Shown: in pieces, positions 29,141 through 32,611 of the stretch
Position numbering within the stretch: position 1 is the stretch's first letter
Layout: each line of letters opens with the position of its first letter
Translations under genes and position numbers: made by a program
Notes under the pieces: model-generated
The model's input: the letters and a program-made list of their open reading frames with translations, nothing else
The model's database searches: none
What the model was told of the DNA's origin: nothing
DNA from: Methanobacteriota archaeon
Lineage (GTDB): Archaea > Thermoplasmatota > E2 > JACPAO01
DNA length: 32,611 nucleotides
Assembly (NCBI GenBank): GCA_016180755.1
Contig: JACPAO010000021.1
Span: 6,496 to 39,106 of the forward strand
Direction of reading: 5' to 3'

Positions 29141-29722
29141 TCAGTGCCGCAACTTCACGAAGTGCTCTTTCTTCCACTTGATGCTGCAGCCGAAGGCGCG
29201 CGTGATGGGCTCTTTGACCTGCTGTCCGGCAAGGAGGCCGTCCATGGCGGCGCGAAGCTCCTTGGCGCGACCGAGCTTCGGGTTCTGCTGGTCCCCGTCG
29301 AACCGGCCCTGGTACCGAAGGAGCCGCTGCTGGTCGAAAAGCAAGACGTGCGGCGTGCACACGGCCCCGTACGCCTCCGCGACCTGCTGCGTCTCATCGA
29401 ACACGTACGGCATCACGAGCCCGTGCTCGCGCGCGTGCTGGACCATCGCCTCGAACCCGTCCTCGGGATACTCTTCGGGATCGTTGCTGTTGATGGCGAC
29501 GACCGCGACGCCCTTGGCCCCGTAGTCCTTCGCTACGTCGTTCATCCGTTCGCGGTACGCTTGCGCGTACGGACAGTGGTTGCAGTACCAGACAACGACG
29601 AGGAGCTTCTTGTCCCGGAACGAATCGAGCGAGTACGTCTTCTCGTCGACGCCGGGGAGGTTCCGGAACGTGGGGGCGGGGTCGCCGAGCTTCAGCTTGT
29701 ACGCGTCGGCGGTCGTGACCAT
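29141..29722 (-). CDS. Thioredoxin-like redoxin family protein
   Basis: WYCNHCPYAQAYRERMNDVAKDYGAKGVAVVAINSND; VCTPHVLLFD. Confidence 0.9.
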   Translation of the reverse strand: MVTTADAYKLKLGDPAPTFRNLPGVDEKTYSLDSFRDKKLLVVVWYCNHCPYAQAYRERMNDVAKDYGAKGVAVVAINSNDPEEYPEDGFEAMVQHAREHGLVMPYVFDETQQVAEAYGAVCTPHVLLFDQQRLLRYQGRFDGDQQNPKLGRAKELRAAMDGLLAGQQVKEPITRAFGCSIKWKKEHFVKLRH

Positions 29723-29807: not shown

Positions 29808-29818
29808 GCTATATTTAA
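29808..29818. promoter_or_regulatory. TATA-like element in the redoxin/sufB divergent intergenic region
   Basis: GCTATATTTAA immediately upstream of operator-like inverted repeat 1. Confidence 0.5.
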
Positions 29819-29829
29819 GGAGGAAATAA

Positions 29830-29845
29830 TTTAGGTGCGCCTAAA
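29830..29845. promoter_or_regulatory. Operator-like inverted repeat 1, TTTAGG-TGCG-CCTAAA
   Basis: 6-bp arms, 4-bp spacer; matches the TTAGG-N4-CCTAA architecture of DtxR/IdeR boxes. Confidence 0.7.
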
Positions 29846-29866
29846 ACGCTCGCTTAACTACAAGTA

Positions 29867-29880
29867 TTAGGGCCCCCTAA
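29867..29880. promoter_or_regulatory. Operator-like inverted repeat 2, TTAGG-GCCC-CCTAA
   Basis: Same TTAGG-N4-CCTAA architecture, centre-to-centre 36 bp from site 1. Confidence 0.7.
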
Positions 29881-29938
29881 CTCGCGACTGCAGTGGAAAC
29901 AAACCCCAGCTCTGGAGCACCCGCGACCAACCCGTCCG

Positions 29939-29946
29939 TATATAAG
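29939..29946 (+). promoter_or_regulatory. Candidate TATA box TATATAAG upstream of the preferred sufB ATG at 29980
   Basis: TATATAAG centred about 37 nt upstream of ATG 29980, inside the longest-ORF N-terminus. Confidence 0.5.
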
Positions 29947-29979: not shown

Positions 29980-32487
29980 ATGAAGAACGAAGACGTCGCG
30001 GCCATCGCGAACCAGGACTACAAGTGGGGCTTCGTGAGCCCCCTCGACGAGGACACGCTGCCGCCCGGGCTCAACGAGGACGTCGTGCGGCTAATCAGCC
30101 AGAAGAAAGGGGAACCCGAGTGGCTCCTCGAATGGCGCCTCAAGGCGTACCGTCACTGGCGCAAGATGAAGGAACCCACCTGGCAGAACGTGCACTACCC
30201 TACGATCGACTACGAGGCGATCCGCTACTATTCCGCTCCCAAGAAGAAGAACCTCAAGTCGATGGACGAGGTCGATCCCGAGGTCAAGAAGACGTTCGAG
30301 AAGCTCGGGATCCCGCTCGAGGAGCAGAAGTTCCTTGCGGGCGTCGCCGTGGACGCCGTCATCGACTCCGCGAGCGTCACGACGACCTTCAAGAAGCAGC
30401 TTGGCGAGAAGGGAATCATCTTCTGCAGCTTCAGCGAGGCCGTCCGCGAGCATCCGGACCTCGTCAAGAAATACCTAGGCTCGGTCGTCCCGTACAACGA
30501 CAACTTCTTCGCGGCCCTCAACTCGGCCGTGTTCAGCGACGGAAGCTTCGCCTACATCCCCCCGGGCGTCCGATGCCCCGTCGAGCTTTCGACGTACTTC
30601 CGCATCAACGCGGCCGGGACGGGCCAGTTCGAGCGGACGTTGATCGTGGCGGAAAAGGGGAGCTACGTGAGCTACCTCGAAGGATGTCTTCCCGAATGGG
30701 AAGAGGTCAGCACCGGCGACCGGATGAAGCCCGTCTGGGACCTCGAGATCGGCGACACGGTCATGGACGGCCGCGGGCAGGAGACGAAGATCGCCAAGGT
30801 CATGCAGCGGTTCTACGACGGCCCGATGCACGAGATTGTCCCGCACAGCTCGGGAAACCGCTTCTTCGCGACGAGCGAACACCCGGTCCTCGTCCTCAAA
30901 GCCAGCAAGGTGCGACGCCGGAAGCGGGGCGCCCAACGGAGCGGGGACGTGCGCAAAGGCGCGCTCTCGAGGGTGGAGCCCGAGTTCATTCGCGCGTCGG
31001 ACGTGACGACGGGCGACTTTCTCGTGTATCCCATCAACAAACTGAGCCGCGAGGACCCGACGCTCTCCGACGACTTCCTCCGACTCCTCGGATGGTACGT
31101 CGCGGAAGGCTGCGCGACCAAGTTCAATGGATACCCGGCGCTCGAGTTCTCCCTAGGTTCTCACGAACCTGAGAACGTCGCCGACGTCTCGCGCCTCATC
31201 GAAGCCGTGGTCGGCAAGAAGCCCTCCGTCACACGCGACGAGAAACGTCCCGGCGTGTACCTCGTCGTCTACTCCAAGGAATTCAGCGACCTCATGGTGA
31301 AGCACGGCGGCAAGTACGCCGAGCAGAAGCGTTTCAGCAAGGCCGTCATGGACCTTCCGCCCGAGCGACAGCAGCTCGTCCTCGATACGTACTACAAGGG
31401 CGATGGGTGCGTCGGGAAACGGGGCCGGCTCGTCGATATCCGCGTGACGACGGTCTCCCGGGAGCTCGCGTTCCAAGTGCAGGAGATGCTGACGCGCAAG
31501 GGCATCTTCGGTTGCGTCAACGAACAGCCGGGCTACGCCGAGACCATGAAGGACGGGCGCACGATCACCCACGCTCGAAAGTACTGCGTGTACTACGCGC
31601 AGAACCCCCGCAGCCGCCGAGTCACGCGGCGCGGCGACGCATTCCTCGTTCCCGTGCGGAAGGTCTCCGCCAAGCCCTACCAGGGCCTCGTTTTCAACTT
31701 TGAGACCGAGGGCGAACCCCACACGTACAACGTGAAGGGTTTTGTCACCCACAACTGCACCGCCCCCATGCGTGACGAGAACCAGCTCCACGCGGCCGTC
31801 GTGGAACTCATCGCGCTCGACGACGCGGAGATCAAGTACAGCACGATCCAGAACTGGTACCCAGGCGACAAGGAAGGAAAGGGCGGAATCTACAACTTCG
31901 TCACGAAGCGCGGCAAATGCCTCGGACGCAAGAGCAAGATCAGCTGGTGCCAGGTCGAGACCGGTTCCGCGATCACGTGGAAGTACCCCAGCTGCATCCT
32001 GCAAGGCGACGAATCGCAGGGCGAGTTCTACTCGGTTGCCCTCACGAACCATCATCAGCAGGCCGACACGGGGACCAAGATGATCCACATCGGCAAGAAC
32101 ACGAAGTCCACGATCATCAGCAAAGGGATCTCCGCCGGCTTCGGCCAGAACACCTACCGCGGCCAGGTCAAGATCCTCCCGGGCGCGTCCGGCGCGCGCA
32201 ACTACAGCCAGTGCGATTCGCTGCTTCTTGGCGACAAGTGCGGCGCGCACACGTTCCCCTACATCGAGGTCAAGAACCCGACGGCCCAGATGGAGCACGA
32301 GGCCACGACGAGCAAGATCAGCGAAGAGCAGCTCTTCTACCTCAAGCAGCGCGGGATCTCGGAGGAGGACGCCGTGAACCTCATCGTGAATGGGTTCTGC
32401 AAGGACGTCTTCCTCAACCTCCCCATGGAGTTCGCGGTCGAGGCGCAGAAACTCCTCGGCGTCCAGCTCGAGGGGTCGGTCGGTTAG
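29980..32487 (+). CDS. sufB: SufB, Fe-S cluster assembly scaffold, interrupted by an intein
   Basis: N-extein DYKWGFVSPLDEDTLPPGLNEDVVRLISQKKGEPEWLLEWRLKAYRHWRKM...GSYVSYLEG; C-extein CTAPMRDENQLHAAVVELIALDDAEIKYSTIQNWYPGDKEGKGGIYNFVTKRG...SCILQGDESQGEFYSVALT; ORF track start is GTG 29893, ATG 29980 preferred. Confidence 0.95.
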   Translation: MKNEDVAAIANQDYKWGFVSPLDEDTLPPGLNEDVVRLISQKKGEPEWLLEWRLKAYRHWRKMKEPTWQNVHYPTIDYEAIRYYSAPKKKNLKSMDEVDPEVKKTFEKLGIPLEEQKFLAGVAVDAVIDSASVTTTFKKQLGEKGIIFCSFSEAVREHPDLVKKYLGSVVPYNDNFFAALNSAVFSDGSFAYIPPGVRCPVELSTYFRINAAGTGQFERTLIVAEKGSYVSYLEGCLPEWEEVSTGDRMKPVWDLEIGDTVMDGRGQETKIAKVMQRFYDGPMHEIVPHSSGNRFFATSEHPVLVLKASKVRRRKRGAQRSGDVRKGALSRVEPEFIRASDVTTGDFLVYPINKLSREDPTLSDDFLRLLGWYVAEGCATKFNGYPALEFSLGSHEPENVADVSRLIEAVVGKKPSVTRDEKRPGVYLVVYSKEFSDLMVKHGGKYAEQKRFSKAVMDLPPERQQLVLDTYYKGDGCVGKRGRLVDIRVTTVSRELAFQVQEMLTRKGIFGCVNEQPGYAETMKDGRTITHARKYCVYYAQNPRSRRVTRRGDAFLVPVRKVSAKPYQGLVFNFETEGEPHTYNVKGFVTHNCTAPMRDENQLHAAVVELIALDDAEIKYSTIQNWYPGDKEGKGGIYNFVTKRGKCLGRKSKISWCQVETGSAITWKYPSCILQGDESQGEFYSVALTNHHQQADTGTKMIHIGKNTKSTIISKGISAGFGQNTYRGQVKILPGASGARNYSQCDSLLLGDKCGAHTFPYIEVKNPTAQMEHEATTSKISEEQLFYLKQRGISEEDAVNLIVNGFCKDVFLNLPMEFAVEAQKLLGVQLEGSVG
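30685..31755 (+). mobile_element. In-frame intein (357 aa) with LAGLIDADG/DOD homing endonuclease domain within SufB
   Basis: Starts CLPEWEEVSTGDRMKPVWDLEIGDTVM, block B ATSEHPVLV, DOD motifs LLGWYVAEG and VLDTYYKGDG, block F YQGLVFNFETEGEPHTYNVKGFVTHN followed by Cys+1. Confidence 0.95.
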
Positions 32488-32509: not shown

Positions 32510-32611
32510 ATGGCGACTCCTCTTCTCGAGATCAAGGACCTGCACGCGAACGTCGCGGGGAACAAGATCCTCAACGGCCTCAACCTCACGATCCACGACG
32601 GCGAGGTCCAC
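32510..32611 (+). CDS. sufC: SufC, Fe-S assembly ATPase (truncated by window end)
   Basis: MATPLLEIKDLHANVAGNKILNGLNLTIHDGEVH, typical SufC N-terminus directly after sufB. Confidence 0.85.
   Translation, partial: MATPLLEIKDLHANVAGNKILNGLNLTIHDGEVH

Follow-up and report, generated by a model that had tools for sequence, protein, structure and literature searches.

The suf locus and the palindromes upstream of sufB

The window analyzed here, the whole stretch of 32,611 nucleotides, lies on contig C138 of an archaeal assembly that amounts to 2.31 Mb in 163 contigs and is 75% complete. An archaeal-type CDC48 and promoters of the TATA type mark the genome as archaeal, and it probably belongs to Thermoplasmatota. 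On the plus strand, the window encodes a bacterial-type SufB protein (29980..32487; PRK11814, 1.1e-266; TIGR01980, 1.3e-191), with an alternative in-frame GTG at 29893, followed by the start of sufC (32510..32611; translation MATPLLEIKDLHANVAGNKILNGLNLTIHDGEVH), which runs off the window. The sufB gene is interrupted by an intein of 357 aa (30685..31755, plus strand) that begins with Cys1, ends with His-Asn before Cys+1, contains a LAGLIDADG_3 domain and is inserted in SYLEG^CTAP; it is absent from the three other genomes of the order (G055, G056 and G057), so that this genome is alone among the four in carrying it. Work on mycobacteria has dealt with conditional SufB splicing (PMC8891592); for the locus described here, the suggestion in the initial annotation that protein splicing could add a second level of control is speculative. 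The divergent neighbor of sufB, on the minus strand, encodes a redoxin (AhpC-TSA-like protein; 29141..29722, ATG at 29722).

The intergenic region between the two divergent genes contains two palindromes to which no strand is assigned: operator 1, TTTAGG-TGCG-CCTAAA (TTTAGGTGCGCCTAAA, 29830..29845; 14-bp core TTAGGTGCGCCTAA at 29831-29844), and operator 2, TTAGG-GCCC-CCTAA (TTAGGGCCCCCTAA, 29867..29880), which is an exact instance of the TTAGG-N4-CCTAA pattern. The initial annotation had described two such palindromes between redoxin and suf, 36 bp apart from center to center, with no other such pair in the window; both are exactly as claimed, and the window holds no further match even when one mismatch is allowed (0.13 expected from shuffles). 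Searches of the operator region for sigma-70 promoters and Rfam families returned none.

Across the 2.31-Mb assembly, the exact pattern occurs only as operators 1 and 2, compared to three occurrences of the reversed control pattern. At one mismatch, there are just five further places in the assembly, none beside a recognizable iron gene, and the places inspected in this genome at one to two mismatches likewise adjoin no convincing iron gene. When the 257-bp intergenic region was shuffled 20,000 times with its dinucleotides kept, a single match was obtained in 11 shuffles and two matches in none. Across the class, the motif count shows no excess over the reversed control, and the argument therefore rests on position: the feature that departs from chance is the pairing of the sites before suf and their occurrence next to iron genes elsewhere. 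That the palindromes are functionless chance products of an AT-richer intergenic region would fit the class-wide count and the location of half of the class sites away from iron genes; given that the only two exact copies of the assembly are spaced by 36 bp, that no shuffle reproduced such a pair and that related sites are found at suf in sister genomes (see below), we consider this explanation very improbable.

A DtxR-family regulator and the match to known iron boxes

The comparison with the DtxR/IdeR consensus made in the initial annotation holds in part. It has been proposed that this consensus be shortened from 19 bp to 14 bp, TTAGGNNNNCCTAA, a site that takes up one dimer (PMC8464063), and both operators match this shorter form exactly, whereas the quoted 19-bp two-dimer box (TTAGGTTAGSCTAACCTAA) is unmatched, the repeat not being continued around either operator. 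The likeness to the actinobacterial iron boxes (PMC8464063, PMC10317159) lies in the 14-bp form, whereas the arrangement differs, with two separate one-dimer sites in place of an overlapping two-dimer box, and with an archaeal promoter. In actinobacteria, Fe-S assembly genes are regulated by IdeR; a single box covering the start site is usual for IdeR-repressed genes, and IdeR-activated genes tend to have several boxes (PMC10317159). The suf locus described here resembles the IdeR regulons in the presence of Fe-S assembly genes and the IdeR-activated genes in the presence of more than one box.

The DtxR-family regulator that the initial annotation presupposed is indeed encoded in this genome, as one clear protein (G000:C140:20845) with both domains of the family (PF01325, 1.8e-18; PF02742, 1.4e-13), although its gene is cut by a contig end. 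It groups with the proteins of the order-mates (support 0.94), and the nearest solved structures are those of DtxR, IdeR and MntR proteins. Alignments, read by eye, indicate that the Cys102-Glu105-His106 metal ligands and His79 are retained (GCRMEH, KHH), with Asn at position 10, Ala at 83 and Asp at 98; because the ancillary metal ligands differ from those of DtxR, the metal cannot be read from the sequence. The recognition helix (ASSVTE) differs from that of the actinobacterial DtxR/IdeR proteins (GPTVSQ), and is close to the PASVTE of those members of the class that have the operator at their genes. Upstream of the dtxR gene itself, there is an 18-bp palindrome, TTTCGG-CATATG-CCGAAA (L057:7743-7760, contig C140), which has the half-sites of the order's operator, separated by 6 bp rather than 4 bp, and could be considered an operator variant; a similar N6 element precedes an unrelated gene (L281:7003).

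The same site at iron genes of related archaea

When 80 further genomes of the class were surveyed for exact matches, 70 distinct sites were obtained, 36 of which are located at iron genes: 26 at feoA, four at feoB, two at genes for a CbiX lipoprotein and one each at dtxR, dtxR/feoA, FTR1 and sufC. By a rough estimate, random placement would put well under one site at such genes. The genome scan suggested in the initial annotation, in which random positions were to be set against iron genes, thus favors the latter, with two exact copies in this genome and about half of the sites in relatives next to feo, dtxR, FTR1, sufC or CbiX genes. Most of the iron-gene sites lie 2-31 bp before the start codon, often directly after a TATA box; placement between the TATA box and the start codon of the uptake genes, over the start region, is the geometry of a repressor. 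One of the relatives, G059, has an exact site before sufC, within a feoB-suf-ZIP-dtxR cluster.

In the order itself, predicted operators, as exact or near matches, were identified with the relaxed pattern TTTMGGN4CCKAAA, which was fixed after some of the sites had been seen, so that the statistics attached to it are indicative only. In G055, dtxR is preceded by TTTAGGTACGCCAAAC at a distance of 13 bp, and TTTCGAGGCCCCGAAA is found at the FTR1 start. In G057, TTTAGGACCTCCTAAA lies 12 bp ahead of FTR1, a weaker site is present 48 bp upstream, and an ABC transporter is preceded by two sites with a spacing of 34 bp. An ABC transporter of this kind has TTTCGAGGAACCGAAA at its start in G056, where it adjoins dtxR. 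The binding protein of the transporter matches both the phosphonate-binding family PF12974 and Transferrin families, making this conserved, operator-bearing system a candidate ferric iron importer. The respective loci (L268:2310-4906 in G057 and L212:647-3157 in G056) encode the binding protein, an ATPase and a permease, with the operators before the first gene.

The sufB genes of two of the three order-mates are preceded by degenerate sites, ATTCGATTCACCTAAA in G055 and TTTCGACTCACCGAAA in G056, the latter belonging to a set of only eight places that match the relaxed pattern with at most one mismatch in 1.7 Mb; in both genomes, the TATA box follows the site after about 22-23 bp. No operator site was found at sufB of G057. 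In the genome under study, FTR1, FeoB and the ABC transporter binding protein were sought and not found in the 75%-complete assembly, and the exact pattern revealed no second iron gene with an operator there.

Pairing of operators recurs among the relatives, with spacings of 34-48 bp. Examples include an exact pair 45 bp apart before a gene for a CbiX-domain lipoprotein (G054:C88; L036:1501 and 1546) and, in G018, a pair before feoA with a spacing of 46 bp.

Predicted iron control of suf and its possible direction

Taken with the regulator gene, the presence of the same sites at the iron-uptake, dtxR and suf genes of relatives supports the DtxR/IdeR-type iron control of suf that was predicted in the initial annotation. 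We consider it highly probable that both palindromes are operators for the DtxR-family metalloregulator of this genome, which would place suf in the iron-uptake regulon; comparative genomics lends good support to the prediction that iron very probably controls suf via this protein. Under the mechanism we envisage, each palindrome would hold one DtxR dimer, so that, when iron is sufficient, Fe(II)-loaded DtxR would occupy both sites; this occupancy would change transcription from the suf promoter, and Fe-S cluster assembly would thereby share an iron regulon with iron uptake. The linkage of a DtxR-family protein to feo and other iron-uptake genes is shared with archaeal regulators of this family, namely, haloarchaeal Idr, SirR and TroR, and the methanogen DtxR associated with FeoAB, as is the location of sites at transporter and regulator genes, seen here in the relatives. 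The sites described here are found at a bacterial-type sufBC operon, a location that may set them apart from those systems.

An alternative is that the DtxR-family sites serve mainly the divergent redoxin, with suf merely adjacent. Operator 1 is 10 bp from a TATA-like element on the redoxin strand (CTTAAATATA; 29810..29819), and iron or redox control of a redoxin is plausible. However, the redoxin orthologs of G055, G056 and G057 are located elsewhere, and have no site within two mismatches of TTTMGGN4CCKAAA in the loci fetched; sites are present, by contrast, at the sufB genes of G055 and G056 and at G059 sufC. These observations make suf the better target, and we rejected redoxin as the main one, an assignment that appears improbable.

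With suf as the preferred target, the placement of the operators relative to the promoter bears on the direction of control. The candidate proximal sufB promoter is the TATA box TATATAAG (29939..29946, plus strand), 34-41 bp before the ATG at 29980; several clear genes of this genome likewise have TATA-like elements about 30-45 bp before the ATG, and TATATAAG is the best candidate for the sufB promoter. The two operators precede this box by 59 and 95 bp, where an activator would more typically bind, and in all three genomes of the order with suf operators (this one, G055 and G056), the sites are upstream of the best TATA box. Two alternatives would restore the repressor geometry. The TATA-like element at 29810..29819, to which no strand is assigned and which could, judging from its sequence, belong to redoxin, might instead be a distal plus-strand promoter (TATATTTAAG), in which case operator 1 would sit on its start site; or translation could begin at GTG 29893, which follows operator 2 by just 12 bp. 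The extra codons that would be added by the GTG start have a low third-position GC (20/29, counted by hand), which argues against this start. Since the suf operators, unlike those of the uptake genes, are upstream of the TATA box, we rank activation first: provided that binding is real, there is about an even chance that Fe-DtxR activates suf, a lower although substantial one that it represses the operon, and a small one that it has no net effect.

Possible origin of the suf operon and a proposed change of regulator

The SufB of this genome is bacterial in type (PRK11814), with up to 86% identity to bacterial proteins. Among named genomes, those recovered in a scan for this SufB are almost exclusively bacterial; the sole record with an archaeal title (L149) looks bacterial and was left out. 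Within the class, the bacterial-type SufB is confined to this order at the threshold used.

Suf operons are often controlled by Rrf2-family proteins, and in other genomes of the phylum that encode the bacterial-type SufB, an Rrf2-like gene is located directly upstream of sufB in seven loci (L181, L183 and L185-L189); all four of these genes that were tested match the SUF regulator family TIGR02944. An alternative is therefore that the palindromes are recognized by a dimeric protein other than DtxR, for instance an Fe-S sensor of the Rrf2/SufR type or a MarR-like winged-helix protein. Yet no gene for an Rrf2/SufR-like or MarR-like protein is found beside suf here, the gene directly upstream of sufB being the divergent redoxin; moreover, the palindrome matches the known DtxR consensus, and throughout the class it also stands before feoAB, dtxR and FTR1, genes at which an Fe-S sensor would be unexpected. 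Recognition by such a regulator accordingly appears distinctly improbable compared to binding of the DtxR-family protein.

The kind of suf operon under control is the same in both cases, whereas the order lacks the TIGR02944-type regulator beside suf and has DtxR-type sites instead, suggesting that suf changed from Rrf2 to DtxR control; some of the Rrf2-bearing genomes may be contaminated. A tentative scenario, which we regard as possible rather than likely, is that the archaeal order acquired a bacterial-type suf operon and put it under its own DtxR, acting as an iron-dependent activator from upstream of the TATA box, opposite to the repression of uptake genes. DtxR iron control is known; among the systems compared here, what would be new is the example on a bacterial-type suf operon.

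The sites delineate a predicted iron regulon, derived from sequence, for an uncultured archaeal order, with Fe-S cluster assembly included. If the sign of control at suf is opposite to that at the uptake genes, one metal sensor would couple the entry of iron to its use in cluster building, and if the switch from Rrf2 to DtxR at suf is real, it would clearly exemplify how regulation can be rewired once a gene has been transferred.

Two further loci of the phylum with a bacterial-type sufB, L182 and L184, have no Rrf2-like gene visible upstream of sufB. In L182 (G081:C1), which comes from another family of the phylum, a TAGG-AAAT-CCTA core is present upstream of sufB and might be a distant counterpart of the operator.
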